Position numbers and translations under genes: made by a program. From positions 1 through 45,775 of the forward strand of contig NZ_JAQGNT010000091.1 of assembly GCF_028291725.1 (NCBI RefSeq): DNA of 45,775 nucleotides. Reading direction: 5' to 3'. How positions within the stretch are numbered: the first letter of the stretch is position 1; each line of letters begins with the position of its first letter. This DNA is from Hydrocarboniphaga sp. (GTDB lineage: Bacteria > Pseudomonadota > Gammaproteobacteria > Nevskiales > Nevskiaceae). Below the pieces are notes generated by a model that saw only the letters and a program-made list of their open reading frames with translations, had not been told where the DNA came from and did no database searches. Positions 9,499-40,448 of the stretch are shown one piece after another.

Positions 9499-11190
9499 AT
9501 GCATCCGCCATCCGACACCCGCCAGCCCGCCGGGCCGCAGGGGACCGACCCGCTGGTCGACGAGCTGTCGGCCGCCGCGGTGGACGCCCACCGGCAGCTG
9601 CTCGACGCGCTGCTGAGCGGCGTCGAGGGCTCCGCATCCGGCACCGGGCGCAGCGCCGACACGTCGGCGCTGCCCATCGAGCTGACCCGCCGCCTGCGCC
9701 TGGACCGCTCCAGGCTGCAGCGGCGTTATCTGCATGAAATTGGCCGGCGCTTCCATCCGCAGGCGCTGTCGCAGCCGGCCGGCGGCGGCAGCGAACGCGA
9801 GCTGCAGGGCTATACGCGCCCGCCGTCCGAGGCGCTGGAGGAGCAGCTGGCACTGGCCGCGCTGGCGCGCCGGCTGAGGGCGTCCCCGGCATCGCAGCTG
9901 CAGGAGCTGGAGCAAAAGCTGCGCGCGCTGGTGCGACGCGCCGCGCTGCCGATCGCGACGACGGTCTATTCGCCGTCCACCGCCTTGGAGTGTTTTCGCA
10001 TCGCGCTGGAAGCGCTGGATATCGAACGGCCGCAGCGGCAGTTGCTGTTCGCACGCTACGAGCAGGCCGCTGCTGCGGCGCTCGGGCCGCTCTACGAACA
10101 GGCGCTGAGCATTCTGGATCGCCATGCCGTCGCAGCGGTGGCGGCACCGATCCGACACGCCAGGCTGACGATCGACGATGCCATGCTGGCTGAGCTGCAC
10201 CAGGTGGCGGCCGGCGGATCGCAGCGCGCCGATGCGCGCCTCGCCGCAGCGCTGCTGGCGATCGTCGGCGGCATACCGCCCGACGAGGTCGAAACGCATC
10301 CGGTGCTGCAACGCATCGCGCTGCTCGGCCCGCTGTGCACCGCCTGGTTCGAGCCGCTGCCGCCGGCCGCGCGCCGCGATGTCGAACGTCTACGCTTCAC
10401 ACTGATCAAGATCGTGCTGGCCGATCCGGTCTTCCTGCTCAACGCCGGCCATCCGCAGCGTTCGCTGCTGCGCGATGCCTGCGAGCATCCGGACGAACAG
10501 CGCCGGCAGCGGGCCTGCTCCCGCATCGAGCAGGTCGCGATGAACGCCGACTTCGTGCACGACGGCCTGGCACAACTGGCGCCGCTGTCCGCGCAGCAGA
10601 TCGACAGCTGCCTGGATCAGCGGCATCAGCAGGACGGCACTCGCGAAGAAACACGGCTCGGCGACGCACGCCGCCAGGTGGCGCTGGCGCTAGCGCGCGC
10701 AACGCTGGCGCACGCGCGGCCGCAGGGTCTGCGCTTGTTCCTGCGCGCTGGCTGGGGGCCGTTGCTGACCCAGCGCCTGCTGAAACACGGCCAGCCGTCC
10801 GTACCGTGGCAGGATGCGCTCGATCAACTGGAGCGGCTGTTGAATGCGCTGTCCAGCGAGGCGACGCGGGTGCGTGACTTCGAGCATCTGCTCAGCGCGG
10901 TGTCGGCCGATCTGTTCGAAGCCGGCATGCGCAGCGAACGCTGCGAGCGCCTGCAGCAGGCCTTGCGCGAGGCTTACTACGAGCTGCGGGTCGAAGCCGA
11001 TGCTGCGGACTCCGCGGTGACGGTGGCCGTGGTGAACCGCACGCTGCCCGGCAACGGCGCGCTCGATCTGCCGGAGTTCATCGAAACCGATATTGCGCCA
11101 CAGGCGGCGAAACATCCGCTGCCCGACGACGAACCCGATCTCGAGCTGCGACCGATCCGCGATGAAACCAAGGGGACGCGAGCCCCGTAG
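9499..11190 (+). CDS. DUF1631-like protein
   Basis: The product has 563 residues, is rich in Arg, Ala and Leu, and is predicted to be almost entirely alpha-helical. It has no signal peptide or membrane segment. Late segments (LRLFLRAGWGPLL, PWQDALDQLERLLNAL, then RVRDFEHLLSAVSADLFEAGM) resemble the C-terminal half of DUF1631 proteins of Xanthomonas and Pseudomonas, which are of unknown role; this copy is shorter than typical members. The ATG at 9499 lacks a clear ribosome-binding site. The stop codon TAG (11188-11190) lies inside the left arm of an inverted repeat. The family assignment comes from recall, not a search. Confidence 0.6.
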   Translation: MHPPSDTRQPAGPQGTDPLVDELSAAAVDAHRQLLDALLSGVEGSASGTGRSADTSALPIELTRRLRLDRSRLQRRYLHEIGRRFHPQALSQPAGGGSERELQGYTRPPSEALEEQLALAALARRLRASPASQLQELEQKLRALVRRAALPIATTVYSPSTALECFRIALEALDIERPQRQLLFARYEQAAAAALGPLYEQALSILDRHAVAAVAAPIRHARLTIDDAMLAELHQVAAGGSQRADARLAAALLAIVGGIPPDEVETHPVLQRIALLGPLCTAWFEPLPPAARRDVERLRFTLIKIVLADPVFLLNAGHPQRSLLRDACEHPDEQRRQRACSRIEQVAMNADFVHDGLAQLAPLSAQQIDSCLDQRHQQDGTREETRLGDARRQVALALARATLAHARPQGLRLFLRAGWGPLLTQRLLKHGQPSVPWQDALDQLERLLNALSSEATRVRDFEHLLSAVSADLFEAGMRSERCERLQQALREAYYELRVEADAADSAVTVAVVNRTLPGNGALDLPEFIETDIAPQAAKHPLPDDEPDLELRPIRDETKGTRAP

Positions 11191-11267
11191 GTCGGCAATC
11201 CCGTTGCCGACGTGTACGGTCAATGCGCAACCGGAGCCTCGCGTCGGCAACGGGATTGCCGACCTAC
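11187..11267. repeat. REP-like inverted repeat, family A, copy 1
   Basis: Two perfect 26-base arms (11187-11212 and 11242-11267) flank a 29-base spacer. Each arm is itself a hairpin: GTCGGCAA-TCCCG-TTGCCGAC. It fills the gap between two convergent genes and supplies the TAG stop of the left gene. It probably acts as a bidirectional terminator or RNA-stabilising element. Confidence 0.9.
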
Positions 11268-11272
11268 CGGGT

Positions 11273-11917
11273 TCACTGAAACGGCGCCTCGTGCACCTGC
11301 ACGCCGCGCTGGTCGCTGAGCGCGCAGGCGATCATCGCCCGTGCGACTTCGGCCGCCGTGACCGGCCGATAGCGCGCCAGAAAGCCGCGGGTAATCAGGC
11401 CCAGCGCCGGCGCCAGTTTCTGTGCGACCGCCTCCATCGGCCGCGATTCGGTACGCTCGCCGAGCAGCAGCGAAGGCCGGATGATGTGCAGTGATTCGAA
11501 GCCGAGCGCGCGCAGATCTTCCTCGACGCGACCCTTGGTGCGGCTGTAGAACGACGGCGAATTCGCGCTGCTACCGACCGCCGACACCAGCAGGAACTGG
11601 CGGCTGCCGGCACGATACGCAGCGCCCGCCAGCGCCATCACCAGATCGTGATCGACATGGGCAAAGGCCTCGCGCGATCCGGCCCTGGCCAGGGTCGTGC
11701 CGAGCGCGCAGTAGACGTCGTCGGCAGCGAGCGACGCGGCATGCGCATCGAGATCGCCGAAGTCGGTCAACAGCACCTGCAGGCGCGGATCGCTGGCCAT
11801 CAGAGGCCGCCGGCTCAGTGCGGTGATTTTCGTGTAGCGGGGCTCGGACAGCAGGCCGCTCAGAAGATGACAGCCGATCAGGCCGGTCGCGCCGGCCAGT
11901 ACCGCGTGGCGAGACAT
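11273..11917 (-). CDS. NAD(P)-binding Rossmann-fold oxidoreductase (atypical SDR)
   Basis: The product has 214 residues. It opens with the dinucleotide-binding motif GATGLIG (residues 9-15), followed by LLSEPRYTKITALSRRPL, where Arg residues after the second strand favour NADP(H). The later blocks DVYCALGTTLARAGS, VSAVGSSANSPSFYSRTKGRVEEDLRALG and IIRPSLLLGERTESRP match the HTATIP2/YwnB-like atypical SDR group (NAD(P)H-binding, nucleoside-diphosphate-sugar epimerase fold). YSRTK supplies a YxxxK pair. The substrate is unknown. It converges on the DUF1631-like gene, and the family A repeat between them ends six bases before its stop. Confidence 0.85.
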   Translation of the reverse strand: MSRHAVLAGATGLIGCHLLSGLLSEPRYTKITALSRRPLMASDPRLQVLLTDFGDLDAHAASLAADDVYCALGTTLARAGSREAFAHVDHDLVMALAGAAYRAGSRQFLLVSAVGSSANSPSFYSRTKGRVEEDLRALGFESLHIIRPSLLLGERTESRPMEAVAQKLAPALGLITRGFLARYRPVTAAEVARAMIACALSDQRGVQVHEAPFQ

Positions 11918-12020
11918 GGCGGTCTGGCCTCCCTGACAAAGTCGGCTCAGTGTAGTCGCAGGACCCGGCAGCGGACGCCCGCGGTTTGCCGATTGTCACT
12001 GGCGCGGCATCCGCAGCTGT

Positions 12021-12026
12021 GATAAT
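12021..12026 (+). promoter_or_regulatory. Possible extended -10 box upstream of the lipid cluster
   Basis: GATAAT is preceded by TGT (TGTGATAATGG), an extended -10 pattern, about 85 bases before the methyltransferase ATG. No good -35 is visible at 17 bases, as is allowed for extended -10 promoters. Confidence 0.3.
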
Positions 12027-12110
12027 GGCATAGCCTTGCTCGCCAGGGGACGCTGGTTCCGTGGACTGAAGCTTGCATCCCGATGAGAAAACGGAGGAAA
12101 CCAAACCGCC

Positions 12111-13142
12111 ATGCGAGCCCCTTTCCGACAGCTGGCCGCGATTTGGGACACCTTGATCTACGGTGCTCCCTACGCCCTGATGCAGTACCTGGTTCGTAGT
12201 CCCAGGCTGCTCGACCCTGAAAAGGTCTGGAAGCTGTTGATGCGCCAGCCGCCCGCCGGGCCGGTCTTCAACTTCTTTCGATTCCATCACCCACCGGCTT
12301 TCGCGCGCCGCCTGCTGCTGGCCTCCAGGATGCGGCAGGATCATCGCCTGGGAATTGCCGAGCATTACGATGTCTCGAACGACTTCTACGAGCTGTTCCT
12401 CGACAAGAAATTCATGTTCTACAGCTGCGCGGATTTCCCCACCGGCAAAGAGACCATCGAAGAGGCGCAGACGATCAAGGCGAACTTCATCCTCGGCCTG
12501 ATCGACCCCAAGCCCGGCGAGAAAATCCTGGAACTCGGCTGCGGCTGGGGCCCGATGATGCGGCACATCGCGGCCACCACCGGTGACCCGGGCAGCCTGA
12601 CCGGTTACACGCTGTCGACCGAGCAGGCCAGTTACGTGCAAGCCAAGTTCGGATTCAATGTCGAGTTCAAGAACTTCATCACCGGCGACTACCAGCCTGA
12701 GGCTTTCGACAAGGTCTACGCGATCGGCGCCTGGGAGCACGTGCGCGCCGACGATCTGGATGGGGTGCTGAAAAAGATTTACCAGACGCTCAAGCCGGGC
12801 GGGCGCTTCGTGAATCATTTTTTCGCGCCGCTGACCGACACCATCACGCCCGGCATGTTCGCCGCACAGGTGTTTTTCCCCGGGTCGATGCCGCCCTCGC
12901 ATCCGAGCCAGTTCAAAGCCTATGAAAAGGCAGGCTTTCGCGTCACCCACCGGTCGATCCACGACTATCGCCCGACGCTGCGCGCCTGGTTCGACAACCT
13001 GGTTGCGAACCGCGAACGCGCGATCAGCCTGGTCGGGATGAAGGTATTCAACAAGTATGTCGCGTTCTTTCCGGGCTCCTGGCGCTACTTTGACGATGCA
13101 CAGGCGATTCTGGTGCGGTATGTGCTGGAGAAGCCTTTCTGA
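12111..13142 (+). CDS. Cyclopropane-fatty-acid-synthase family methyltransferase
   Basis: The product has 343 residues. It is SAM-dependent and expected to add a methylene or methyl group to unsaturated acyl chains of membrane lipids. The signature EHYDVSNDFYELFLD (about 83-97) and the SAM-binding ILELGCGWG are intact. The residues that hold bicarbonate in CFA and mycolate cyclopropane synthases appear conserved: Cys in FYSCADF, Glu in AWEHVRADD, His in FVNHFF, and Tyr in DYRPTLRAW. The N-terminal part (about 80 residues) is shorter than in E. coli Cfa and contains a hydrophobic stretch (YGAPYALMQYLV). GGAGG lies 13 bases before the ATG, somewhat far. It is first in a lipid cluster; the stop overlaps the first unit of an 11-bp repeat array. 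Confidence 0.88.
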   Translation: MRAPFRQLAAIWDTLIYGAPYALMQYLVRSPRLLDPEKVWKLLMRQPPAGPVFNFFRFHHPPAFARRLLLASRMRQDHRLGIAEHYDVSNDFYELFLDKKFMFYSCADFPTGKETIEEAQTIKANFILGLIDPKPGEKILELGCGWGPMMRHIAATTGDPGSLTGYTLSTEQASYVQAKFGFNVEFKNFITGDYQPEAFDKVYAIGAWEHVRADDLDGVLKKIYQTLKPGGRFVNHFFAPLTDTITPGMFAAQVFFPGSMPPSHPSQFKAYEKAGFRVTHRSIHDYRPTLRAWFDNLVANRERAISLVGMKVFNKYVAFFPGSWRYFDDAQAILVRYVLEKPF

Positions 13143-13206
13143 TTAGTTCAGGATTAGCCCGGGATTAGTTCAGGATTAGCCCGGGATTAGCTCAGGATTA
13201 GTCTTG
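13141..13206. repeat. Six tandem 11-bp repeats (GATTAGYYCRG)
   Basis: Units begin at 13141, 13152, 13163, 13174, 13185 and 13196. They alternate GATTAGTTCAG and GATTAGCCCGG for four units, followed by GATTAGCTCAG and a decayed GATTAGTCTTG. The array fills most of the gap between the methyltransferase and desaturase genes. The 11-base period places every unit on nearly the same face of the helix. Confidence 0.9.
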
Positions 13207-13255
13207 TGACGGCGGGTGGCCCGGGGGCCACGCCGCCGGGAATGGAGGGACCCGC

Positions 13256-14347
13256 ATGCACATCCCGTTTCAGCTGGACGCGGAGCGCCAGGAGGCGCTC
13301 CGCGCCGAAATCGACACCAAGCGCCGCGAACTCGTGGCCGATCTGGGCGAGCGCGACACGCGCTACATCCGCCGCGTGATGCGGGTGTCGCGGCTGCTCA
13401 GCATCGGCGGCCGCTCGCTGCTGATGTTCAGCTTTTTCAATCCCTACACCTGGATCGCCGGGGTGCTGAGCCTGGCCGTGGCCAAGATTCTCGAGAACAT
13501 GGAGATCGGCCACAACGTGATGCACGGCCAGTACGACTGGACCGGCGACCCGCGGCTCGATTCGCGGACCTACGACTGGGACAACGTCTGCGCCGCCCAG
13601 GACTGGAAGCAGTCGCACAACGTCAAGCATCACGACCTGACCAATATCGTCGGCAGGGACCCCGACTTCGGCTACGGCGTGCTGCGGCTCACCGACGCGG
13701 TACCCTGGCATCGTCGCAGCCGCGCCCAGCTGGTGCTGGGCCTGACCACGACGCTGATTTTCGAATGGGCCGTCGGCATCCACGACGCCGAGCCCGAGGC
13801 GGTGCGCGACGGGCGCATCAGCTTCAAGCAGTTCGTCGACCGGCTCGGCGCTTTCGGGCGCAAGCTGCGGCGCCAGGCGTTCAAGGATTATCTGCTGTTC
13901 CCCGCGCTGGCCCTGCTGACCGGCCATGCGCTGGGTGTGCTGGCCGGCAACGCCCTCGCCAACCTGATCCGCAACATCTGGTCGGCGGTGATCATTTTCT
14001 GCGGCCACTTCCCGCAGCAGACACGCATCTACTCGATCGATGAGACCGCGAACGAAAGCCGCGGCGCCTGGTACGCACGGCAGATCGAAGGCTCGTGCAA
14101 CATCGAAGGCGGCTGGCTGCTGTATGTGATGAGCGGATACCTGAGCCACCAGATCGAGCACCACGTGTTCCCGGATATCCCGTCGCACCGCTATACGGAG
14201 ATCCAGCCCTGGCTCAAGGATCTGTGCAAGCGCTACGGCCTGCAATACAACACGGGTAGTCTGCCGCGGCAGTACTGGTCGGTAGTGCGCCGGGTGGCAC
14301 GCTATTCGGCGCGGCCCAAGCCGGCGACGGGCGCGCTGCCGGCCTGA
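13256..14347 (+). CDS. Membrane fatty acid desaturase
   Basis: The product has 363 residues and is an integral membrane di-iron desaturase. The three histidine boxes are complete: HNVMH at 86-90, HNVKHH at 121-126 and HQIEHH at 298-303. Hydrophobic pairs lie near 52-80 and 155-175, with more at 210-250. The third box and the following VFPDIPSHRY match the acyl-CoA or acyl-lipid desaturase group that includes mycobacterial DesA3-type enzymes; regiospecificity cannot be inferred. Ligand spacing is normal and no box is lost. The start ATG 13256 follows GGAGGGACCCGC. It would generate the double bond that the upstream methyltransferase family uses as substrate. Confidence 0.93.
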   Translation: MHIPFQLDAERQEALRAEIDTKRRELVADLGERDTRYIRRVMRVSRLLSIGGRSLLMFSFFNPYTWIAGVLSLAVAKILENMEIGHNVMHGQYDWTGDPRLDSRTYDWDNVCAAQDWKQSHNVKHHDLTNIVGRDPDFGYGVLRLTDAVPWHRRSRAQLVLGLTTTLIFEWAVGIHDAEPEAVRDGRISFKQFVDRLGAFGRKLRRQAFKDYLLFPALALLTGHALGVLAGNALANLIRNIWSAVIIFCGHFPQQTRIYSIDETANESRGAWYARQIEGSCNIEGGWLLYVMSGYLSHQIEHHVFPDIPSHRYTEIQPWLKDLCKRYGLQYNTGSLPRQYWSVVRRVARYSARPKPATGALPA

Positions 14348-14443
14348 ACCGCATCGGCAGCAGCATCCCGGTGCGCGGCGCGCCTGCGTAGACTAACGCG
14401 GTCATTCGGGGGGCGATGGGTGACGATCGCGGAGCGCCGGTTT

Positions 14444-17915: not shown

Positions 17916-17930
17916 GCGCGTCGCAGCGAC

Positions 17931-18006
17931 GTAGTTTGGGGTGAGCTTGCGAACCCAAAAATTTGCGCGCGCGACCGTTGGGGTTCGCAACCTCACCCCA
18001 ACCTAC
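17931..18006. repeat. REP-like inverted repeat, family B, copy 1 (degenerate)
   Basis: The left arm at 17931-17960 (GTAGTTTGGGGTGAGC...) and the right arm at 17977-18006 (...CTCACCCCAACCTAC) pair with several mismatches. It lies between two tandem genes, 15 bases after the acyl-CoA reductase stop. It is the least conserved of four B copies. Confidence 0.85.
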
Positions 18007-19160: not shown

Positions 19161-19233
19161 GTAGATCGGCAATCCCTTGCCGACAGGCTCGCTTGCATAC
19201 GCACTCCGTGCCGACAAAGGATTACCGCGCTAC
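19161..19233. repeat. REP-like inverted repeat, family A, copy 2 (decayed)
   Basis: The left arm GTAGATCGGCAATCCCTTGC... (19161-19185) matches family A with one change. The right arm (about 19208-19233) is heavily mutated. The spacer differs from those of copies 1 and 3. It lies between tandem genes and is probably an old, decaying copy. Confidence 0.75.
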
Positions 19234-19311: not shown

Positions 19312-20358
19312 GTGACCGAACTCATCGAACCACCACCGGCGCCTACACGCTGGCTGCCGCTGCAGCGCCTGCTCGCGCGCGTGCTCAGCCTGCTCGATCG
19401 CTATCCCTGGCTGCTGCCGCTGGGCAGTTTCGTCGCCGGCGCCGCGAGCTATTTCATGGTGCGGCGTGGCGAGACCCTGGCGCGCAGCATCGCGATCGTC
19501 GCGCTGCTGGGCTGGCCCTGGCTGCTGGTGCAGGGCTGGCTGCATCGCTATCTGATCCGGCGTTTCAACTCGCGCTGGACACCCTATGCGCTGCAGATGG
19601 TGACGCAGTCGATCCAGCAGGAAGTACTGTTCTTCGCGCTGCCCTTCATCATCGGCGCGACGCAGCGCGACTGGGGCCAGTGGCTGTTCACCAGCCTGGC
19701 CTGCGTCGCGGCGCTGGTCAGCACGCTCGATCCGATCTACGAAAAACGCATCGCCCAGCGGCCAGCGCTGGGCATGCTGTTTCATGCCTATTGCAGCTTC
19801 GTCTGTGCGCTGGTCGTGATCCCGATCGCGCTGAAAGTCCAGCTCGAAAACGCGCTGCCGCTGGCGCTGGCGATCACTGGGCTGTGGCTGCTGCTCGGCC
19901 TGCCGCGCGTCTGGTCGGACCTGTCGACCCAGCGCGCCCGCACGCTCGGCCTGACCGGCCTGCTGCTGGCCCCGTTCCTGCTTTGGCTGTTGCGAGCGCA
20001 CGTGCCGGCGGCCGGTCTGTCGGTGACGGATGCGCGCATTTCACAGACCATCGATGGCCTTGATCCCGGCAACGCGGTGACCACGTTCTCGACCAGCGCG
20101 CTGAAAGGCAGCGGTGCAATCGCGTTCGTCGCGATCCGCGCGCCGATGGGCCTTGAGCAGAGCGTGGTGTTCCAGTGGGTGCAGAACGGCCAGCTGCTCG
20201 ACCGGATTCCGGCCGAGATCCACGGCGGCGGCAAAACCGGCTGGCGCACCTGGAGCCGCAAGCGAAATTTCCCCGAGGACCCGCGCGGCGACTGGAGCGT
20301 GGATCTGGAAACGCCGGACGGACAACTGATCCAGCGCCTGGAGTTCCGCGTTTCATGA
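19312..20358 (+). CDS. Membrane protein with DUF5924-like and DUF2914-like regions
   Basis: The product has 348 residues from a GTG at 19312. The N-terminal two thirds carry several membrane segments (near 38-58, 65-85, 105-125, 130-145, 160-180, 185-200 and 215-232). The C-terminal periplasmic region (from about 240) has FQWVQNGQLLDRIPAEI, GGGKTGWRTWSRK and GDWSVDLETPDGQLIQRLEFRV, the pattern of the DUF2914 beta domain. The arrangement is known from other gammaproteobacteria but has no assigned function. The stop overlaps the next start (ATGA at 20355-20358), so the two genes are translationally coupled. Confidence 0.82.
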   Translation: MTELIEPPPAPTRWLPLQRLLARVLSLLDRYPWLLPLGSFVAGAASYFMVRRGETLARSIAIVALLGWPWLLVQGWLHRYLIRRFNSRWTPYALQMVTQSIQQEVLFFALPFIIGATQRDWGQWLFTSLACVAALVSTLDPIYEKRIAQRPALGMLFHAYCSFVCALVVIPIALKVQLENALPLALAITGLWLLLGLPRVWSDLSTQRARTLGLTGLLLAPFLLWLLRAHVPAAGLSVTDARISQTIDGLDPGNAVTTFSTSALKGSGAIAFVAIRAPMGLEQSVVFQWVQNGQLLDRIPAEIHGGGKTGWRTWSRKRNFPEDPRGDWSVDLETPDGQLIQRLEFRVS

Positions 20359-20666
20359 GCAAGCTGAGCCGGCGCACCAGGCCGGACGCGCTGCTGATCT
20401 GCAAAAAGTGCCTGAAAAAGCAGCGGCGCGATTGCGACGTCGACGGAGTCGAACTCGACGACTGGCTCAAGCAGCAGCTGCGCGCGCTCGACGGCGAGCC
20501 GCTGCCGATGGCCAAGTGCAAATGCCTGGACCTGTGCCCGGACGACGGCGTGGTGCTGGCACTCGGCGGCAAGCTCGCCGGCAAAAAGCCGCTGCACGTG
20601 ATCAAGAATGGTGACAAGCCCGAGCGCGTGATCCGCTGGCTGGGGCAGCGCGGTAGGTTGGGGTGA
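20355..20666 (+). CDS. Small 2Fe-2S ferredoxin-like / metal-binding protein
   Basis: The product has 103 residues. Cysteines occur as CKKC near the N-terminus (LLICKKCLKKQRRDC) and as CKCLDLCPDDGV in the second half. This resembles the thioredoxin-like 2Fe-2S ferredoxin fold, in which an N-terminal pair and a later CxxxC-type pair hold the cluster. Here the second set is C-K-C-L-D-L-C-P. It overlaps the preceding membrane-protein gene by four bases and is probably co-expressed with it. The last four codons (encoding RLG plus the TGA) lie inside the left arm of repeat B2, so the native C-terminus has been replaced or extended by the repeat. Confidence 0.78.
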   Translation: MSKLSRRTRPDALLICKKCLKKQRRDCDVDGVELDDWLKQQLRALDGEPLPMAKCKCLDLCPDDGVVLALGGKLAGKKPLHVIKNGDKPERVIRWLGQRGRLG

Positions 20667-20731
20667 GCATCGCGAACCCCAACATCGGCGCGGAACAAAC
20701 GTTGGGGTTCGCTGCGCTCACCCCAACCTAC
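20653..20731. repeat. REP-like inverted repeat, family B, copy 2
   Basis: The arms at 20653-20683 and 20701-20731 are near perfect around a 17-base spacer. It separates convergent genes and provides both stops: TGA (20664-20666) for the ferredoxin-like gene and TAG (20730-20728, minus strand) for the DAHP synthase gene. Confidence 0.92.
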
Positions 20732-21795
20732 GGCGGGCGCAGCCGCGCGCGACGCTGCGCCACGCTCGCCGACAAGGTCCGCAGCACGTCCACCGTATCG
20801 TCCCAGCCGATGCAGGCGTCGGTGACGCTCTGGCCGTACTTCATCTTGTCAGGCGCCGCGATTTCCTGGCGGCCTTCGACCAGGTGCGATTCCACCATCA
20901 CGCCAATGATGCGGCGGTCGCCGGCGGCGATCTGGCCGCCGACATCCTGCGCGACGACGATCTGGCGCTTGTGCTGCTTGGAGCTGTTGGCGTGGCTGAA
21001 GTCGATCATGATTTCGGGGCGCAGGCCGGCCTTGGCCATCGCCGCGCTGGCCGCTTCCACCGACTGCGCGTCGTAGTTGGTGCCGAGCGTGCCGCCGCGA
21101 AGAATGATGTGGCAGTCCTCGTTGCCGCTGGTCTCGAAGATCGAGATCTGGCCTTCCTGGGTCAGCGACAGGAAACGATGCGGCGTGCGCGCCGACTGGC
21201 AGGCGTCGACCGCAACCTTGACGCTGCCGTCGGTGCCGTTCTTGAAGCCGACCGGGCAGGACAGGCCGCTGGCCATTTCGCGGTGCAGCTGCGACTCGGT
21301 GGTGCGCGCACCGATCGCACCCCAGCTCACCAGGTCGGACAGGTACTGCGGCGTCAGCAGATCGAGGTATTCGACGCCGGCCGGCAGGCCCTGGTTGTTC
21401 AGATCCAGCAGCAGCTTGCGCGCGGTGCGCAGGCCCTGATCGATGTCATAGGTGTCATCCAGCTTCGGATCGTTGATCAGGCCTTTCCAGCCGACCGTAG
21501 TGCGCGGCTTTTCGAAATACACGCGCATGACGATCAGCAGGTTCTGCTTCAACTGCTCGCGCGCGCCGAGCAGGCGCTCCGCGTATTCGAGCGCGGCCCG
21601 GGTGTCGTGGATCGAGCAGGGGCCGACGATTACCAGCAGGCGATCGTCGCGGCCGGCCAGCACTTCCTGGATTTCGCGGCGCGTGTCGAAGGTGGTCTGG
21701 GCGGCGCGCTCGGACAGCGGCAGTTCGGCCTGAACCTGGGCCGGCGTCGAAACCGCGCGGGCGCGCGAGCGGATGTTGTCGGTAACGAACTTCAT
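20728..21795 (-). CDS. aroG: 3-deoxy-7-phosphoheptulonate (DAHP) synthase, class I
   Basis: The product has 355 residues from ATG 21795 (an upstream GTG at 21837 adds 14). It condenses phosphoenolpyruvate with erythrose 4-phosphate, the first step of aromatic amino acid synthesis. Family blocks are intact: VIVGPCSIHD, MRVYFEKPRTTVGWKGLINDP, GARTTESQLHREMASGLSCPVGFKNGTDG, HIILRGG, IDFSHANSSK and GVMVESHLVEG. Length and sequence fit the AroF/G/H type; which amino acid feeds back cannot be told without comparing the allosteric residues, so the symbol denotes the family only. The stop codon lies within a family B repeat. Confidence 0.96.
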   Translation of the reverse strand: MKFVTDNIRSRARAVSTPAQVQAELPLSERAAQTTFDTRREIQEVLAGRDDRLLVIVGPCSIHDTRAALEYAERLLGAREQLKQNLLIVMRVYFEKPRTTVGWKGLINDPKLDDTYDIDQGLRTARKLLLDLNNQGLPAGVEYLDLLTPQYLSDLVSWGAIGARTTESQLHREMASGLSCPVGFKNGTDGSVKVAVDACQSARTPHRFLSLTQEGQISIFETSGNEDCHIILRGGTLGTNYDAQSVEAASAAMAKAGLRPEIMIDFSHANSSKQHKRQIVVAQDVGGQIAAGDRRIIGVMVESHLVEGRQEIAAPDKMKYGQSVTDACIGWDDTVDVLRTLSASVAQRRARLRPP

Positions 21796-22913: not shown

Positions 22914-22921
22914 TGCGCGCC

Positions 22922-30764: not shown

Positions 30765-30837
30765 ACTGTAGGAGCGGTCCTTGACCGCGATTATGCGCTG
30801 CAAAGCCTCAATCGCGGTCAAGGACCGCTCCTACAGT
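30765..30837. repeat. REP-like inverted repeat, family C, copy 1
   Basis: Perfect 28-base arms (30765-30792 and 30810-30837) with core TAGGAGCGGTCCTTGACC surround a 17-base spacer. Each arm can also fold internally (GCGGTC-CTT-GACCGC). It lies between the convergent receptor and small membrane-protein genes. Confidence 0.92.
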
Positions 30838-31313: not shown

Positions 31314-31354
31314 AAGTGCGTTTTCCCTAAAAAAAGACGTACTAATATAGTTTT

Positions 31355-31373
31355 AATCACATAATATGTGATT
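31355..31373. promoter_or_regulatory. Dyad 1: perfect 19-bp inverted repeat
   Basis: AATCACATA-A-TATGTGATT, nine-base arms around one base. Likely operator for a dimeric regulator. Half-sites TCACA/TGTGA are arranged opposite to a CRP site. Confidence 0.55.
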
Positions 31374-31407
31374 TTAAATCGCTAATTGCTCTTATACGGT
31401 TCGATTC

Positions 31408-31425
31408 AGCACATCGTATTGTGCT
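31408..31425. promoter_or_regulatory. Dyad 2: AGCACA-N6-TGTGCT
   Basis: Perfect six-base arms around TCGTAT. Its centre is 52.5 bases from that of dyad 1, close to five helical turns. Confidence 0.45.
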
Positions 31426-31466
31426 TGATGATTAAATTAATAAAGACATAATATACAATAAAAATA

Positions 31467-31478
31467 CACATTTATGTG
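31467..31478. promoter_or_regulatory. Dyad 3: CACA-TTTA-TGTG
   Basis: Four-base arms. The flank ATGTGATTTAAA is shared with dyad 1 (ATGTGATTTTAAA), suggesting the same protein binds both. Confidence 0.4.
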
Positions 31479-31609
31479 ATTTAAAATTTATTCTTACCGT
31501 TATTTTTAATTTATTAGCACCAACATGATCTCGAATTTCCGCCACCGATCCTGCATCCGCTGCCGCTTTCCCGGACAATACAACATCGCTTATTGATCAA
31601 TTGATAGAT

Positions 31610-31632
31610 AAAGCTGCAATTGCGGCTTTTTT
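31610..31632 (+). terminator. Intrinsic-terminator-like hairpin upstream of the MFS gene
   Basis: AAAGCTGC (31610-31617), loop AATT, GCGGCTTT (31622-31629), an eight-pair stem with one G-U, followed by a T run (T27-T32 in 31627-31632). It sits 14 bases before the MFS ATG, so it could be an attenuator. Confidence 0.5.
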
Positions 31633-31645
31633 ATCGCACCATCGC

Positions 31646-32878
31646 ATGCTGCCGCTCGTCCTTTCCGCTGTTTCGGTCTTCACGGCCGCTGCGCTGTTCG
31701 TCGCCGGACAGATGCTGCTCGGTACCCAGCTGTCGCTGGGTCTGTCCGCGGCCGGCTTCGGGCCGATGCACATCGGTCTGGTCATGATGTGCTACTCGTT
31801 CGGCTTCATGCTCGGCTCGGTCACCGGGCCGCGGCTGATCAGCCGGGTCGGTCATATCCGGGTGTTTTCCGCGTTTGCAGCGCTGACCTGTTGCGCGGCG
31901 CTGATGCACAGCCTGCTCCTGCATGACCTGCTCTGGGCTCTGCTGCGCGCGATCTCCGGTTTCTGCGGTGCGCTGCTGCTGATCGTGTTGGAAAGCTGGA
32001 TCAATGCGCACGCCACGCCGCAGGCGCGCGGCCGGCTGATGAGTCTGTACATGGTCAATTACTACCTCGCCGGCGCCGGCGGCCAGTTGCTGGTGGGCCT
32101 GTATCCGCCCGGCGATCACCGGCTGTTCGCGATCGCCGCCAGCCTGCTGGTGCTGGCCTCGGTGCCGCTGTCGCTGACCTCGCGCCCGGCACCGGCGCTG
32201 CCAACCTCGGGCCGGCTTGCCTTCCGCGAGCTTTTCCGTGCGTCGCGGATCAGCGTCGCCGGGGCGCTGGTCGCCGGCTTTGCGATGGCCGCGTTCTATC
32301 AGCTGTCGCCGATTTCGGTAAAAGGGCTGGGCTATGACGTCGGCACGGTTGCGCGCTACATGGCCTGCGCGGTGGTCGCCTCGATGGCGCTGCAATATCC
32401 GATCGGCCGGCTGTCGGACCGCTACGACCGGCGCCGGGTGATTCTCGGCATTGCGATCGCGGTCGCGGCTTCGTCGCTGCTGGCCGCGACCGTCGGGCAG
32501 TTGTCGCTGGCCGGACTGTTCGTCGCCAGCATGTTGTTCACGGCCACGCTGTCCTGCCTGTATCCCTCGTGCCTGGCGCGGCTCAACGATCGCACCCACG
32601 GCCGCAATCCGGTCGCGGCGAATGCCAGCCTGCTGCTGTGCTACGGCGTCGGCCAATGCCTCGGGCCGATCGTCAGCGCCGCCGTAATGAGCCTGCTCGG
32701 GCCGGCCGGGCTGTACGTCGCAGTGTTCGTGGTGCTGCTGGCCTTCGCCGGATACAGCCTGCGCCGGCTCGAGACCGCCAATACCGGCGTCGACGATCAG
32801 CAGCGTTACGTTCCGATGCCATCGCTGCCGACGCCGGGCATCGTCAACACCGTGCCGGCAGGCGACAATAAGCCATGA
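31646..32878 (+). CDS. MFS transporter (YcaD-like)
   Basis: The product has 410 residues from ATG 31646; a TTG at 31601 is in frame but would put the terminator-like hairpin in coding sequence. Twelve hydrophobic segments are visible, with MFS motifs between helices 2 and 3 ([18 protein letters not shown]) and in the second half ([17 protein letters not shown]). The pattern [34 protein letters not shown] fits the YcaD-like subgroup of unknown substrate. The stop overlaps the hemE start (ATGA at 32875-32878), so translation of hemE may be coupled to it. No ribosome-binding site is evident. Confidence 0.9.
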
Positions 32879-33990
32879 ACACACTCTCAACTGCCAGCGC
32901 GCCCTCACAGGGCCGGATTCTCGACAACGACCTGTTCCTGCGCGCACTGCGCCGCGAGAACGTGGAGCGCACGCCGACCTGGATGATGCGCCAGGCCGGG
33001 CGCTACCTGCCCGAGTACCGCGCCACGCGCGCGAAAGCCGGCGGTTTCATGGACCTGTGCCGCAACGCCGAGCTGTGCTGCGAAGTCACACTGCAGCCGC
33101 TGGAGCGCTACGGCCTGGACGCGGCGATCCTGTTCTCCGACATCCTGACCATCCCCGACGCGATGGGCCTGGGCCTGAGCTTCGCCGAGGGCGAGGGTCC
33201 GCAGTTCGCGCGGCCGCTGCGCAACGCCGCCGACATCGACGCGCTGCCCGACCCGGACCCGGAAGGCGAACTGCGCTACGTAATGAACGCGGTGCGCACG
33301 ATCCGCGGCGCGCTCGGCAGCCGGCTGCCGCTGATCGGCTTTGCCGGCAGCCCGTGGACGCTGGCGACTTACATGGTCGAAGGCCGCGGCGGCCACGACT
33401 TCGCCAAGATCAAGGCACTGGCCTACGAGCAGCCCGAAGTGCTGGACCGGCTGAGCGCCAAGCTGGCGAAGTCGGTGACCCAGTACCTGCTGGCGCAGGT
33501 TGCGGCCGGCGCCGATGCCTTGATGGTGTTCGACACCTGGGGCGGGGTGCTGGCGCCGTCGTTGTATCGCCGGCATTCGCTGGACCCGATGCGTGCGATC
33601 GTCGCCGGCCTGAAGGCGGCGGCGCCGACCGTGCCGGTGATCCTGTTCACCAAGAACGGCGGCCAGTACCTGAGCGAGATGGCCGACACCGGCTGCGACG
33701 GCCTGGGCGTGGACTGGACCACGGACCTGTCCGTGGCGCGCGAGCGCGTCGCGGGCCGCGTCGCACTGCAGGGCAACCTCGACCCGACCACGCTGTTCGC
33801 GTCGCCGGAACGCATCCGGGCCGAAGTCGCGCGGGTATTGCAGAGTTACGGAGCCGGGCCCGGCCATATCTTCAACCTGGGCCACGGCATCCTGCAGCAG
33901 ACGCCGCCGGAACATGCTGGCGTGATGATAGCTGCGGTGCGCGAACTCAGCCCGGCGCATCACGTTACCGGCGCTGCGCTGAAGTCGTAG
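32875..33990 (+). CDS. hemE: Uroporphyrinogen decarboxylase
   Basis: The product has 371 residues. It decarboxylates the four acetate arms of uroporphyrinogen III to give coproporphyrinogen III in haem synthesis. Signatures: [16 protein letters not shown] near the start, [14 protein letters not shown] with the catalytic Asp, [27 protein letters not shown] and [15 protein letters not shown]. The N-terminus is about 15 residues longer than in E. coli. Overlaps the MFS gene by four bases. The TAG stop (33988-33990) lies inside a family A repeat. Confidence 0.98.
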
Positions 33991-34065
33991 GTCGGCAATC
34001 CCTTGCCGACGGGAGGCTCCGGTTGCGCATTCACCGTACACGTCGGCAAGGGATTGCCGACCTAC
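33987..34065. repeat. REP-like inverted repeat, family A, copy 3
   Basis: Perfect 25-base arms (33987-34011 and 34041-34065) surround a 29-base spacer. The spacer is the reverse complement of that in copy 1 apart from two bases, so the element is mobilised as a whole and here lies in the opposite orientation. It supplies the hemE stop codon. Confidence 0.92.
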
Positions 34066-34090
34066 CAGCGGTTCGAGTAGGAGGGCGTTG

Positions 34091-35053: not shown

Positions 35054-35082
35054 CAGGCCGATAGGTACAAATATTTACGACA

Positions 35083-35098
35083 GCGCTTCTACAAGCGC
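35083..35098. promoter_or_regulatory. Dyad upstream of the PII gene
   Basis: GCGCTT-CTAC-AAGCGC, perfect six-base arms, 58 bases before the PII start. It could be an operator or the terminator stem of the upstream gene; there is no T run. No sigma-54 (GG-N10-GC) element is convincing nearby. Confidence 0.35.
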
Positions 35099-35155
35099 CC
35101 GCGCTTTGGCTAGACTGAACGAACCTAACTCTCAAGCGCGCAGAAGGCCCCCGTC

Positions 35156-35494: not shown

Positions 35495-35516
35495 AGCTTC
35501 AAGACTGGGTCGCTTG

Positions 35517-35596
35517 GTAGGTTGGGGTGAGCGATAGCGAACCCCAACACCGGCGCGGACCACTGTTGGGGTTCGCTATCGCTCACCCCAACCTAC
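35517..35596. repeat. REP-like inverted repeat, family B, copy 3
   Basis: Perfect 32-base arms (35517-35548 and 35565-35596) surround a 16-base spacer. Between the convergent PII gene and the 35601-36551 gene, ending five bases before the latter's stop. The best preserved B copy. Confidence 0.95.
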
Positions 35597-35600
35597 GCCG

Positions 35601-36551: not shown

Positions 36552-36613
36552 AAGAGGGCCAGGTCAAAGCGAATAGACTGATCGTCGTCCGATTTTTCTC
36601 GACGCATGGCTCC

Positions 36614-37003
36614 ATGACACTCCGGCGGATCTCACTGCGGGTACTGCTGGCTTGGCTGCTGATCGGCTGGATCGGCATCGCCCAGGCCGCGACCATCTAC
36701 CGATGGGTGGACGAGCGCGGCCGTGTGCATTACGGCGACCAGCGCGGTGCCGGTGTCAGCGCGATCGAAATCCGGCCCGGTGGCGGCGAGGCCCGGCCGG
36801 TCGAGCAGGCCGAGGCCGTCCAGCCGCTCACCCAGGAATGCGAACGCCGCAAAAGCCAGCTGGAGGCCTATAAGAGCGCGGCCTCGGTGGTCGAGACCGA
36901 CGCGCTGGGCCAAAGCCATGAATACGACCCGGCACAGAGAACCCAGCTGATGCAGCTCGCCGAGCGACGAGTATTGAGCGCCTGCGGCAGACCGGGCGTA
37001 TGA
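36614..37003 (+). CDS. DUF4124-domain protein 1
   Basis: The product has 129 residues. The signal peptide LRVLLAWLLIGWIGIAQA precedes the DUF4124 motif ATIYRWVDERGRVHYGDQ. The remainder is charged and helical (ECERRKSQLEAYKSAASV). Exported, function unknown. The stop overlaps the start of a second, related gene (ATGA at 37000-37003), so the pair is co-translated and probably arose by duplication. Confidence 0.85.
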   Translation: MTLRRISLRVLLAWLLIGWIGIAQAATIYRWVDERGRVHYGDQRGAGVSAIEIRPGGGEARPVEQAEAVQPLTQECERRKSQLEAYKSAASVVETDALGQSHEYDPAQRTQLMQLAERRVLSACGRPGV

Positions 37004-37440
37004 ACCGCCGCCGGATTGCGCTCCTGCTGCTGTGGATCGCCGCGCTGCCGGTGGTCACGGATGCGGCGGTCTACAAGTGGACCGACAGCCAGGGCGCGCT
37101 GCACTACGACGACATGAACCAGGCGAGCGGCCACGCGATGACCCAGGACGACGTCAAGAAGCGCGTCGTCAAGGCGGTGCCGGAATGGGCCGGCATCGTG
37201 CCCGCGGAGTTTGCGCACGAAGTCGAGCAGCGTTGCGCGCAGACACGGGAACGCCTGGCCGGCTATCGCTCGGCCAAGACGCTGTACGGACGCGATCCGG
37301 ATGGCAATACCTATCGGCTGTCGGCTTCGCAGGCGCGCTTGCTGGTTGCGGAGACCGAACGCGAAACGACGGGTCTTTGCGCTGCGGATGCGCCGCAACG
37401 GCTGTATCAGCAGGTGCGGCCGAAATCGGCAACGAACTAG
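37000..37440 (+). CDS. DUF4124-domain protein 2
   Basis: The product has 146 residues. The signal peptide RIALLLLWIAALPVVTDA is followed by AVYKWTDSQGALHYDDM, the DUF4124 pattern. A second half with QRCAQTRERLAGYRSAKTLYGRDPDGNTYRLSASQ-type text parallels the ECERRKSQLEAYKSA segment of the preceding gene: each has one Cys near this point and one near the C-terminus, which could form a disulfide in the periplasm. Function unknown. Followed two bases later by a family C repeat. Confidence 0.82.
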   Translation: MNRRRIALLLLWIAALPVVTDAAVYKWTDSQGALHYDDMNQASGHAMTQDDVKKRVVKAVPEWAGIVPAEFAHEVEQRCAQTRERLAGYRSAKTLYGRDPDGNTYRLSASQARLLVAETERETTGLCAADAPQRLYQQVRPKSATN

Positions 37441-37442
37441 CG

Positions 37443-37508
37443 GTAGGAGCGGTCCTTGACCGCGATTGAGGCCCCGTCAGCACAATCGCGGTCAAGGACC
37501 GCTCCTAC
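37443..37508. repeat. REP-like inverted repeat, family C, copy 2
   Basis: Perfect 26-base arms (37443-37468 and 37483-37508) surround a 14-base spacer. Between the convergent DUF4124 and speE genes. The spacer is unlike that of copy 1. Confidence 0.93.
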
Positions 37509-37526
37509 AGTTCCAGCACCCAAGCC

Positions 37527-38378
37527 TTACGCCAACGCCTTAGCCACATACCCCGGCAGCGCGAACGCGCCGCGGTGGATCGCCGCGTTGTAGTACAGCG
37601 CATCGAGCTTGGCCAGCGCGGCGCCGTCCAGACGTTCCTGCAGCGGCGCCGCGGTCTTGCAGGCGATTGAACCCGACCACCAGCCGGACGGATACAGCGG
37701 CTGCGGGAACGTGAACAGATGGGTCTGCGCAAAGCCCGCGACCTTCATCGTCTGGTGCATCTCCTGGATCAGCTCCAGATGCAGCAGCGGTGATTCCGAC
37801 TGCTGCACCAGCATGCCGTCGGGCTTCAGCGCCTTCATGCAATCCAGGTAGAACTTCTTGCCGAACAGACCTTCCGCCGGCCCGACCGGATCGGTCGAGT
37901 CGATGATGATCAGGTCGATGCTGCCGGGCGCCGCATCCTTCATCCACTGGATACCGTCGCCGAAGAACAGCGTCGCGCGAGGGTCCTTGTTCGCGGTGCA
38001 CAGCTCGGGGAAATACTGCTCGGACAGCCGCGTGACGCGCTCGTCGATCTCCACCTGCGTGGCCTTGAGCACTTCGGGGTGTTTCAAAACCTCGCGCAAA
38101 GTCCCACAATCGCCGCCGCCGACGACCACCACGTTGCGCGGATCGGGGTGCGAGTTCAGCGCAACGTGCGACATCATCTCGTGATACAGAAAATTGTCGC
38201 GCGTCGACACCATGGTGCAGCCGTCGATGACCATCAGGTAACCGAAGGTCTCGGTGCGATAGATTTCGATCTTCTGGTACGGAGTCTGTTCCTCGACCAG
38301 TTTTTCGCCGAGTTTCAGCGAAAATGCCGTGCCGGTTGCATCGACGGGTTCGGTGAACCAGCTGGTATCCAGTGCCAT
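37527..38378 (-). CDS. speE: Spermidine synthase
   Basis: The product has 283 residues. It transfers aminopropyl from decarboxylated SAM to putrescine. Family blocks: WFTEPVDATGTAFSLKL, TPYQKIEIYRTETFGYLMVIDG, YHEMMSHVAL, VVGGGDCGTLREVLKHP (nucleotide-binding loop; Cys replaces the second Gly run of GGGDGG), FGDGIQWM and DSTDPVGPAEGLF with the catalytic Asp. Divergent from speA across 75 bases, so two steps of polyamine synthesis share one promoter region. The decarboxylated SAM supplier (speD) and agmatine-to-putrescine enzymes are not in the window. Confidence 0.97.
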   Translation of the reverse strand: MALDTSWFTEPVDATGTAFSLKLGEKLVEEQTPYQKIEIYRTETFGYLMVIDGCTMVSTRDNFLYHEMMSHVALNSHPDPRNVVVVGGGDCGTLREVLKHPEVLKATQVEIDERVTRLSEQYFPELCTANKDPRATLFFGDGIQWMKDAAPGSIDLIIIDSTDPVGPAEGLFGKKFYLDCMKALKPDGMLVQQSESPLLHLELIQEMHQTMKVAGFAQTHLFTFPQPLYPSGWWSGSIACKTAAPLQERLDGAALAKLDALYYNAAIHRGAFALPGYVAKALA

Positions 38379-38453
38379 ATCGCGCTCTCATCAATAGGGT
38401 TGCAATGAACGCGCGAGTATAAAGGCCCATAACTTTGTTTGAGTGACGATACG

Positions 38454-40358
38454 ATGTCGAAGCCAGCCTGGACCGCCGACCGCGCCCGCGAGCGCTACAA
38501 CCTGCCGCAGTGGGGCGAGGGCTATTTCGACGTGTCCGACGCGGGCGACAGCCGCGGCCACGTGCTGGTGCGGCCGTTCCGCGATCCCGACGGCCCCGCG
38601 ATCGATCTGTACGAGATTGCCCGGCGGCTGCCGCTGGAAGGCCTCGACCTGCCGGTGCTGGTGCGCTTCAACAATATCCTGGAAGACCGCGTCGATGCGC
38701 TGACCGGCGCGTTCGCGCGCGAGATCGAGGATCTTGGCTACGAAGGTCGTTACACGGCCGTGTACCCGATCAAGGTCAATCAGCAGGCCGACGTGGTCAA
38801 GACCATCGTCCGCCACGGCGGCGCGCGCGTCGGCCTGGAGGCTGGCAGCAAACCGGAACTCGCAGCGGTGCTCGGCCTCGCGCCGGCTGGCAGCCTGATC
38901 GTCTGCAACGGCTACAAGGACCGCGGCTACATCCGCCGCGCGCTGATCGGCCAAAAGCTCGGCCACACGGTTTACATCGTCGTCGAGAAACTGTCCGAAC
39001 TGCCGATCGTGCTTGAAGAGTCACTCGCGCTCGAGGTCGTGCCGGTGATCGGCCTGCGCGTGCGCCTGGCTGCGGACTCGAGCAGCACGCAGCAGAACAC
39101 CGGCGGCGAGAAAGCCAAGTTCGGCCTGACCACGCCGCAGGTGCTCGAAGCAGTCGAGATGCTGCGCGCGGCTGGCCGCATCGCGTCGATCCAGATGGTG
39201 CATTTCCACCTGGGTTCGCAGGTCGCCGCGGTGCAGGACATCGCGCGCGGTCTGCGCGAGGCCGCGCGCTTCTATGTCGAGCTGCGCCGTCTGGGCGCGC
39301 CGATCGACGTGGTCGACGTCGGCGGTGGCCTGGGCGTCGATTACGAAGGCACGCGTTCACGCAGCCACTGCTCGATGAACTACGGCCTGCGCGAATATGC
39401 ACGCAACATCCTGCGCACGCTGCGCGATGTCTGCATCGAAGCCGGCGAGCCGCAGCCGAACGTGATTTCCGAATCCGGCCGCGCGCTGACCGCGCATCAC
39501 GCGGTGCTGATCACCAGCGTGATCGACCAGGAGATCGTGCCGACCTCGGCGATCGAAGCGCCGGCCGCCGACGCGCCGAGCGTGCTGCGCGAGTTGTACG
39601 AGTTGCTGAACGACAGCCCCGGCCGCGGACCGATCGAATCGCTGCATGAAGCAGCCCAATTCCTGTCGGAAGCGCAATCGCTGTACGCCGAAGGCCTGTT
39701 GAGCCTGGGCCAGCGCGCCTGGGCCGAGCGCGCGTACTTTGCGGTCGCGCGCGACGTACAGCCCAAACTCGATTCCGGCATTCGCGCCGAGCGCGAGGCG
39801 ATCGAGGGCTTGAGCGAAAAGCTGTCGGCGAAATACTTCTGCAATTTCTCGGTCTTCCAGTCGGTGCCCGATGCCTGGGCGATCGAACAGGTGTTTCCGA
39901 TTCTGCCGATCCACCGGCTCGACGAGCGGCCCTCGGTTCGTGCGCGTCTGTGCGATCTGACCTGCGACTCCGATGGCCGCCTGGATCGCTACGTCGATCG
40001 CGAAGGCGTGATGCCGACGTTGGCGGTGCACGAGCTGATCGAGGGCCAGCCCTATCTGATCGGCCTGTTCATGGTCGGCGCCTACCAGGAGATTCTCGGC
40101 GACATCCACAATCTGTTCGGCGACACCAACGCGGTGAACGTCGTGCTCGACGCGAAGTCGCCGCAGGGCTGGCACCTGGAAGGCGCCGAGCATGGTGACC
40201 GCACCGACGAACTGCTGCGCTACGTGCACATCGCGCCGGAGGATCTGGCGCAGAGCTATCGCAAGAAGCTGGCGGTGCTGAATCTGCCGCAGGCGCAGCG
40301 CACGGCGCTGCTGGCGGAGCTGGAGGCCGGGCTGTCGGGCTACACTTACCTCAGCTGA
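38454..40358 (+). CDS. speA: Biosynthetic arginine decarboxylase
   Basis: The product has 634 residues from ATG 38454 (a TTG at 38439 is in frame but lacks support). A fold-III PLP enzyme that makes agmatine from arginine. The PLP lysine lies in TAVYPIKVNQ (Lys107), the phosphate-binding loop in DVGGGLGVDYEGT, and the C-terminal active-site segment in LCDLTCDSDGRLD. The blocks NFSVFQSVPDAWAIEQVFPILPIHRL and GAYQEILGDIHNLFGDTN are typical. It is slightly shorter than the E. coli enzyme (658). Expected to need magnesium and to act in the cytoplasm or periplasmic fraction. A family B repeat begins 13 bases after its stop. Confidence 0.97.
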   Translation: MSKPAWTADRARERYNLPQWGEGYFDVSDAGDSRGHVLVRPFRDPDGPAIDLYEIARRLPLEGLDLPVLVRFNNILEDRVDALTGAFAREIEDLGYEGRYTAVYPIKVNQQADVVKTIVRHGGARVGLEAGSKPELAAVLGLAPAGSLIVCNGYKDRGYIRRALIGQKLGHTVYIVVEKLSELPIVLEESLALEVVPVIGLRVRLAADSSSTQQNTGGEKAKFGLTTPQVLEAVEMLRAAGRIASIQMVHFHLGSQVAAVQDIARGLREAARFYVELRRLGAPIDVVDVGGGLGVDYEGTRSRSHCSMNYGLREYARNILRTLRDVCIEAGEPQPNVISESGRALTAHHAVLITSVIDQEIVPTSAIEAPAADAPSVLRELYELLNDSPGRGPIESLHEAAQFLSEAQSLYAEGLLSLGQRAWAERAYFAVARDVQPKLDSGIRAEREAIEGLSEKLSAKYFCNFSVFQSVPDAWAIEQVFPILPIHRLDERPSVRARLCDLTCDSDGRLDRYVDREGVMPTLAVHELIEGQPYLIGLFMVGAYQEILGDIHNLFGDTNAVNVVLDAKSPQGWHLEGAEHGDRTDELLRYVHIAPEDLAQSYRKKLAVLNLPQAQRTALLAELEAGLSGYTYLS

Positions 40359-40371
40359 CCGAATGTACGAT

Positions 40372-40448
40372 GTAGGTTGGGGTGAGCGCAGCGAACCCCA
40401 ACGATCACCCGCGCAATGTTGGGGTTCGCTGCGCTCACCCCAACCTAC
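40372..40448. repeat. REP-like inverted repeat, family B, copy 4
   Basis: Perfect 31-base arms (40372-40402 and 40418-40448) surround a 15-base spacer. Between the convergent speA and CoA-transferase genes, ending three bases before the latter's stop codon. Confidence 0.94.

Follow-up and report, generated by a model that had tools for sequence, protein, structure and literature searches.

Why do inverted repeats of three sequence families lie at gene 3′ ends, mostly between convergent genes, in a single stretch of Hydrocarboniphaga sp. DNA? The window analyzed here is the whole of that stretch (45,775 nucleotides, contig NZ_JAQGNT010000091.1), and the earlier note on it read the placement as a sign of selection for termination or insulation, or of insertion targeted to transcript ends.

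Architecture of the elements and their RAYT genes

All nine of the inverted repeats proposed from the sequence are present (Table 1). Eight are among the 25 longest of the 37 inverted pairs given by an inverted-repeat search, and the ninth, at 19161, was recognized by reading the sequence. Eight of the nine were folded, and every one greatly exceeds its dinucleotide shuffles in stability, with z between -7.8 and -15.8.

Table 1. REPINs of the window and the gene ends that they adjoin
Position	Family and form	Gap	Inverted-pair bounds	Stop codons and remarks
11187..11267	A	convergent	11180-11274	TAG 11188-11190 is the stop of + gene 9499-11190
17931..18006	B, imperfect, left arm GTAGTTTGG	tandem, 17915/18060	17931-18006	
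19161..19233	A, degenerate	tandem, 19154/19312		escaped the strict doublet scan
20653..20731	B	convergent	20649-20735	donates TGA 20664-20666 to + gene 20355-20666 and TAG 20730-20728 (minus strand) to - gene 20728-21795
30765..30837	C, ACTGTAGG..CCTACAGT	convergent, 30745/30846	30765-30837	
33987..34065	A, loop orientation opposite to 11187	tandem	33987-34065	TAG 33988-33990 is the stop of + gene 32875-33990
35517..35596	B	convergent, 35494/35601	35517-35596	
37443..37508	C	convergent, 37440/37527	37443-37508	
40372..40448	B	convergent, 40358/40452	40372-40448	

A REPIN consists of two inverted REPs forming one mobile unit tied to a RAYT. The window elements are REPINs, each pairing two REP palindromes that are GTAG-tagged and inverted relative to each other. 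The arrangement of two inverted REPs as a unit appears in the repeat search, the boundary scan and folding, and GTAG is placed at the base of the imperfect palindromes as in the REP superfamily. The earlier label REP-like was right. The families had been called unrelated, which holds for their sequences but not for their architecture, a single one being common to all three. With all 256 tetranucleotides compared as outer boundaries of doublets in 1.24 Mb, GTAG is the commonest (161 doublets compared with a median of 2), which excludes chance, and TAGG, shifted one base inward from GTAG, bounds 156. Copy number is high, with 268 + 275 arms genome-wide for family B, 115 + 117 for family C and 52 doublets in the 1.24 Mb for family A. 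The elements are largely extragenic, with 147 of the 152 doublets outside the window being intergenic, three genic and two at sample edges.

Each of families A, B and C has its own RAYT gene elsewhere in the genome with matching REPs alongside, as had been suggested as a check; the pairing is seen for A (L005), C (L004, upstream side only), B (L026, 6757-7284, minus strand) and two further families, D (L006) and E (L007). All five proteins bear the HxH and Y..NP motifs and score above the cut-off of 80 bits with NF047646 (NCBIfam REP_Tyr_transpos), at 198.8 (B), 141.2 (A), 137.7 (C), 200.1 (D) and 191.9 (E), and are predicted to be intact-looking Y1 HUH single-strand transposases. An initial search with PF01797 had indicated that family B is without a transposase; this is refuted as a failure of sensitivity, the RAYT-B protein reaching 15.7 bits with Pfam, under the cut-off of 23. 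Its gene was found by reading the open reading frames of contig C13 and then confirmed with NCBIfam. B-like REPs are present beside some RAYT-B relatives, for example in Dyella and Methylomonas, and the scanned flanks of 53 of 80 relatives, including the two nearest, hold no GTAG doublet. Similarity of the RAYTs weakly suggests a Lysobacterales-like gammaproteobacterium as host.

Placement in the genome and probable displacement of stop codons

Gene calls from a hexamer caller again place six of the nine elements in convergent gaps and three in tandem gaps, with divergent gaps empty, and likewise give eight convergent gaps in the window, of which only 22914-22921 and 43192-43277 lack an element. 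The six filled of eight are on the high side of the 64 of 148 in the genome sample (P = 0.07). That sample comprises 1,190,190 bases outside the window on 12 contigs chosen non-randomly, the long ones from match listings and C1, C13 and C117 for RAYTs or repeat clusters, with genes taken from our own hexamer caller and no annotation used. The window is included in the gene-end, family, stop-displacement and G002-conserved-gap counts and left out of the placement, gap-length and double-occupancy counts, except for the 320 element ends and the three genic elements. The strict doublet scan overlooks degenerate copies such as 19161. A scan for arms with up to four mismatches is mostly chance at its loose end, where 155 of 181 four-mismatch arms are inside genes (reversed patterns give 197 matches compared with 593), and later arm counts are therefore restricted to three mismatches or fewer.

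The enrichment in convergent gaps is real beyond the window. The 152 doublets of the sample (1.19 Mb) divide into 61 convergent, 80 tandem, 6 divergent and 5 genic or edge copies, whereas intergenic length predicts 15.7 convergent and 43.3 divergent for the 147 intergenic doublets; the total is unchanged at three gene-calling thresholds. The absence from divergent gaps thus stands for the window but not outside it, given the six copies found there. In family C the bias is weaker: of its 16 intergenic elements outside the window, 5 are convergent (P = 0.02), and its divergent depletion is not significant. The elements are close to the genes, 131 of 216 REPIN-adjoining gene ends being within 15 nt.

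At 50 of these 216 ends the TAG of GTAG is itself the stop codon. The last residue coincides with that of the orthologue in the genus relative G002 in only 3 of 17 such genes, compared with 135 of 217 genes not beside a REPIN (P = 0.0005; three G002 stretches, L157, L170 and L174, left out), and comparison with the orthologues suggests that the stop has been shifted onto the TAG of the element. Among 57 overlaps with coding sequence, 50 stop at the TAG, 4 continue further into the element and 3 are wholly within a called gene; since so many end at the TAG, translation into the hairpin seems to be rarely tolerated.

No doublet is present in the relative in any of 22 orthologous gap comparisons covering 19 elements (18 with G002, 2 with G001 and 2 with G003), and none occurs in the 1.47 Mb of genus relatives' DNA examined. 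Spread of the elements most likely postdates the separation of this lineage from the compared genus relatives, with gain here being more probable than loss there. Exact insertion boundaries are not readable because the relatives are only ~80% identical. On the putative transposition by the RAYTs the 22 element-free gaps bear only indirectly.

Explanations for the bias toward 3′ ends

The reading we favor, with a probability of roughly 0.6, is that these are RAYT-paired REPINs whose bias arises mainly from purging elsewhere and retention at or behind stop codons. The REPINs of each window family would be non-autonomous and mobilized by their own RAYT. Copies landing in coding sequence or between a promoter and a start would be purged, and those at or directly behind a stop codon retained; where the original stop is lost, or a copy inserts within the final codons of a gene, the TAG of GTAG would take over as stop. 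Convergent gaps would be richest because both of their sides are 3′ ends and a promoter is absent. The architecture, copy number, RAYT association, sample bias, element-free orthologous gaps and shifted C termini on which this builds are observed, and the purging step is what we infer. Retention near gene 3′ ends accounts for much of the bias, and three families at one kind of position do not by themselves demonstrate termination, insulation or targeting, as tolerance only beside gene 3′ ends would yield much of the pattern. Pure survivorship, however, predicts neither a drop in occupancy with convergent gap length nor an even spread over convergent gaps, and both are seen.

With the element removed, 49 of 85 convergent gaps shorter than 60 bp are filled compared with 10 of 63 longer ones (76 of 112 and 8 of 36 when any dispersed repeat is counted). 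In gene pairs conserved with G002, a doublet is present in 15 of 25 convergent, 19 of 157 tandem and 0 of 29 divergent gaps. Doubles are few, 67 elements being spread over 64 convergent gaps where 54 occupied gaps are expected (P = 1e-4, all families pooled). These observations leave room for function or targeting, and to that extent favor the earlier proposal of termination, insulation or targeting, but they do not separate function from targeting. One palindrome may be retained in tight convergent gaps as a 3′-end element for both genes, one that would block colliding polymerases or antisense readthrough and whose hairpin would shield both mRNAs, and one copy would saturate the need. The scarcity of sites resembling intrinsic terminators agrees with such a role. 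Set against it are the missing U-tract, the relatives' element-free gaps, which show dispensability, the need for different stem sequences to do one common job, and the unannotated genes that long gaps may conceal; on balance we hold it to be unlikely. In the bolder form, tight convergent gaps would recruit and keep one REPIN, from any of several RAYT systems, as a two-way 3′-end insulator, and selfish families of independent origin would thereby converge on one host job with one-per-gap saturation; this is speculative and unlikely. Intrinsic termination is rejected, as only 9 of 320 element ends have a T4 run within 10 nt and an Rfam search of the window gives no match above the gathering threshold. 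Among convergent gaps, terminator-like hairpins are as scarce in those holding a REPIN (9 of 59) as in those without one (8 of 89, P = 0.30).

The few doubles would also follow if RAYT insertion favors 3′ ends, for example by entry into single-stranded DNA or into convergent regions under supercoiling, and if an occupied gap ceases to attract further copies. Of the convergent gaps shorter than 30 bp in G002, a small target for random insertion, 13 of 18 are filled here (any arm with three mismatches or fewer). No sequence target is found except a pyrimidine preference immediately before GTAG, random insertion followed by purging yields much of the same pattern, and the double deficit, pooled over all families, does not separately show exclusion between families; we regard targeting as improbable. 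IS200/IS605 relatives insert beside a fixed tetranucleotide, and GTAG might likewise be a pre-existing target behind genes already ending in it, as the frequent use of its TAG as stop would allow. This is disfavored by the C termini, unlike those of the G002 orthologues in 14 of 17 genes. Of the 17 orthologous stops none is GTAG, a comparison weak alone given 14 of 217 in other genes; we regard a pre-existing GTAG target as very improbable.

Relation to known REP systems

The elements resemble the GTAG REP systems described in PMC3733652 in the GTAG tag, palindrome, inverted dimers, family-specific RAYT, placement and TAG donation. That work reports a predominance of convergent and unidirectional sites, repeat-specific REPtrons and several families per genome, most convergent GTAG REPs of P. 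entomophila and S. wittichii lying less than 20 bp from both ORFs, and TAG often being donated as stop codon. The convergent and tandem bias, stop proximity, TAG donation and family-specific RAYTs are thus already published for GTAG REPs; per-gap occupancy and the orthologue stop-displacement and double-occupancy tests are added here to what is described there. The elements are also like REPINs in general in having two inverted REPs as a RAYT-linked unit, and like the E. coli REP/BIME elements in being extragenic palindromes near stops, although the sequence is different. According to work cited in PMC12306157, ribosomes stall and translation falls where an E. coli REP lies no more than 15 nt from a stop, and the REPIN model paper argues for discounting host benefit (PMC8049555).

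Both the kind of element and its bias are known, and this genome shows both in clean form; if the insulation reading is false, the locus is an ordinary example of known biology. REPINs may be useful to the host or tolerated parasites. The stop displacement suggests that they also change protein C termini. With several REPIN families, intact-looking RAYTs and doublet-free relatives (1.47 Mb), the genome is a good natural experiment, in which termination, antisense transcription and mRNA stability can be compared between the one-element and the empty members of convergent gap pairs.

Identity, copy number and transposases of the repeats

The nine inverted repeats that the earlier note described in the window are present at its coordinates, and the eight that were folded are all much stabler than shuffles (z -7.8 to -15.8). 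The arms of all window elements begin with GTAG followed by a palindrome, and the second arm is an inverted copy of the first, giving the layout of a REPIN, two inverted GTAG-tagged REP palindromes. In 1.24 Mb of sequence (the window plus 1.19 Mb of the same genome) GTAG ranks first of 256 outer-boundary tetranucleotides with 161 doublets (median 2), which become 160 once overlaps are merged (A 52, B 54, C 20, D 23 and other 11, with family D having the sequence GTAGGGCGGGTC). Genome-wide there are 268+275 B arms with at most one mismatch, 115+117 C arms with at most three, and 8+11 family A arms, the last count covering one stem variant only, without the variant at 33987. CT precedes GTAG at 38 of 40 family C ends in the sample. 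In the accessible part of PMC8266576, GTAG is described as guiding cleavage, which takes place at CT.

Features by coordinate, with the palindrome that follows GTAG in each window family
Feature	Location	Description
Family A elements	window 11187, 19161, 33987	GTAGGTCGGCAATCCC.TTGCCGAC; 19161 is a degenerate copy with degenerate GTAG, missed by the strict doublet scan
Family B elements	window 17931, 20653, 35517, 40372	GTAGGTTGGGGTGAGCGCAGCGAACCCCAAC; 20653 provides the TGA stop of one adjacent gene and the TAG stop of the second
Family C elements	window 30765, 37443	GTAGGAGCGGTCCTTGACCGCGATT
AT-rich stretch	window 31314-31645	between divergent genes (window 65% G+C); no match in an Rfam comparison
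Imperfect inverted repeat	window 31328-31508	within the AT-rich stretch
Family A RAYT stop codon	L005 1303-1306	within the flanking REPIN
Family B RAYT	L026 (contig C13) 6757-7284, minus strand	B repeats on both sides
ORF run adjoining the B RAYT	L026 6692-13631	presumably adenosine-deaminase-like and nucleoside-phosphorylase-like; between some of the ORFs lie B repeats whose order is reversed (-,+), at a spacing of about 1.5 kb
ORF adjoining the IS200 transposase	L001 631-1635	taken to resemble a CRISPR-associated Cas3-type helicase

RAYT (Y1 transposase) genes beside matching repeats, for which the earlier note had proposed a search, were found for all three window families. The genome has seven PF01797 matches, with those on contigs C9, C5 and C1 having REPs of families A, D and E, respectively, on both sides and that on C117 having two family C doublets upstream; the B RAYT scores under the Pfam cut-off and was recovered from the C13 ORFs. 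RAYTs A to E all score above 80 bits, the cut-off of the NCBIfam RAYT model. Two more Y1 proteins fall under it (74 at locus L003 and 60.8 at L002), and the same comparison identifies that of L001 as an IS200 transposase. REPtrons are family-specific in the accessible text of PMC3733652.

Exact copies of the B 16-mer number 244+254 in this genome; there are none in three same-genus genomes, and four of 57 further relatives have at most four each. A strict scan of 1.47 Mb of genus relatives detected no GTAG doublets, and in orthologous gaps of relatives the element is absent in 22/22 comparisons (19 elements). A GTAG doublet lies within roughly 800-900 nt of 27 of the 80 fetched RAYT-B relatives, and none in such flanks of the other 53, the two nearest by identity included. 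Several of these doublets share the start GTAGGTTGGGGTGA, for example in Dyella and Methylomonas, indicating that B-like REPs are present in other genera.

Placement behind gene ends and shared stop codons

Gene models from a hexamer-trained caller reproduce the window placement first reported (six convergent, three tandem, none divergent, with 6/8 convergent gaps filled), and the convergent bias holds outside the window. There, 152 doublets divide into 61 convergent, 80 tandem, 6 divergent, 3 genic and 2 at sample edges, and 147 randomly placed intergenic doublets would give 15.7 convergent and 43.3 divergent (each P at most 5e-5). The pooled result is robust across three gene-calling thresholds; by family, the bias is strong in A and B and weak in C, with the convergent excess of D significant at two of the three thresholds. 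Occupied gaps outside the window number 59/148 convergent, 78/716 tandem and 6/151 divergent, and 65 of the 80 tandem-gap elements are closer to the upstream stop. Among pairs conserved with the same-genus relative G002 (window included), doublets occupy 15/25 convergent, 19/157 tandem and 0/29 divergent gaps. As far as its accessible text extends, PMC3733652 likewise places REPs mostly in convergent and unidirectional gaps, at distances under 20 bp, and reports TAG donation; that of PMC1525189 describes REPs as common between convergent genes and connects this with supercoiling and with regulators being absent there.

Of 216 REPIN-adjacent gene ends (window included), 50 use the TAG of GTAG as their stop codon, the next most frequent offset among those listed having nine, and both genes are stopped in this way at 6/67 convergent REPINs. 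The same end residue as the G002 orthologue is found in 3/17 genes stopped by a REPIN TAG, compared with 26/46 with a REPIN within 30 nt (P = 0.009), 3/7 further off and 135/217 genes elsewhere (P = 0.0005 for 3/17 against 135/217). Eight of the 17 are shorter than their orthologues and six longer. This mismatch of end residues suggests that the stop was shifted to the REPIN in most of the 17 genes; GTAG occurs at 0/17 of the orthologous stops, the rate elsewhere being only 14/217. Among about 1,068 called genes in the 1.24 Mb there are 288 TAG stops, 145 of them GTAG, including the 50 REPIN ends. TAG serves as stop at 1/23 family C ends versus 29/74 for family A. In their accessible parts, PMC12306157 links stop proximity with translation and PMC8049555 makes a case for host benefit.

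Gap length and double occupancy

A simple model is survivorship, with copies purged from genes and promoters and kept just behind gene 3' ends. It leaves unexplained a gap-length trend and a scarcity of doubles in convergent gaps. With the element subtracted, convergent gaps under 60 bp are occupied in 49/85 cases and longer ones in 10/63; counting any dispersed repeat gives 76/112 versus 8/36, a count in which subtracting all covered bases shifts occupied gaps toward short bins. Among empty convergent gaps at least 60 bp long, 14/40 match sequence elsewhere in the sample (window included).

In a looser scan pooling all families, 67 elements fall in 64 of the 148 convergent gaps, with 54 occupied gaps expected if elements were independent (P = 1e-4); control scans gave 3 (shuffled) and 10 (GATG boundary) in convergent gaps, so a few of these elements could be chance matches. 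A like result comes from the strict set, also pooled (61 elements in 59 gaps, 50.1 expected, P = 3e-4). Tandem gaps, which are far from saturation, have no such deficit (90 occupied, 88.2 expected). The convergent deficit could possibly reflect selection for one element, blocked re-insertion, or loss of second copies. Neither the trend nor the deficit was found in a limited search of open-access literature, and no priority is claimed. The window repeats are a confirmed, well-formed example of a known phenomenon, of which one distributional feature stays unexplained and is worth testing.
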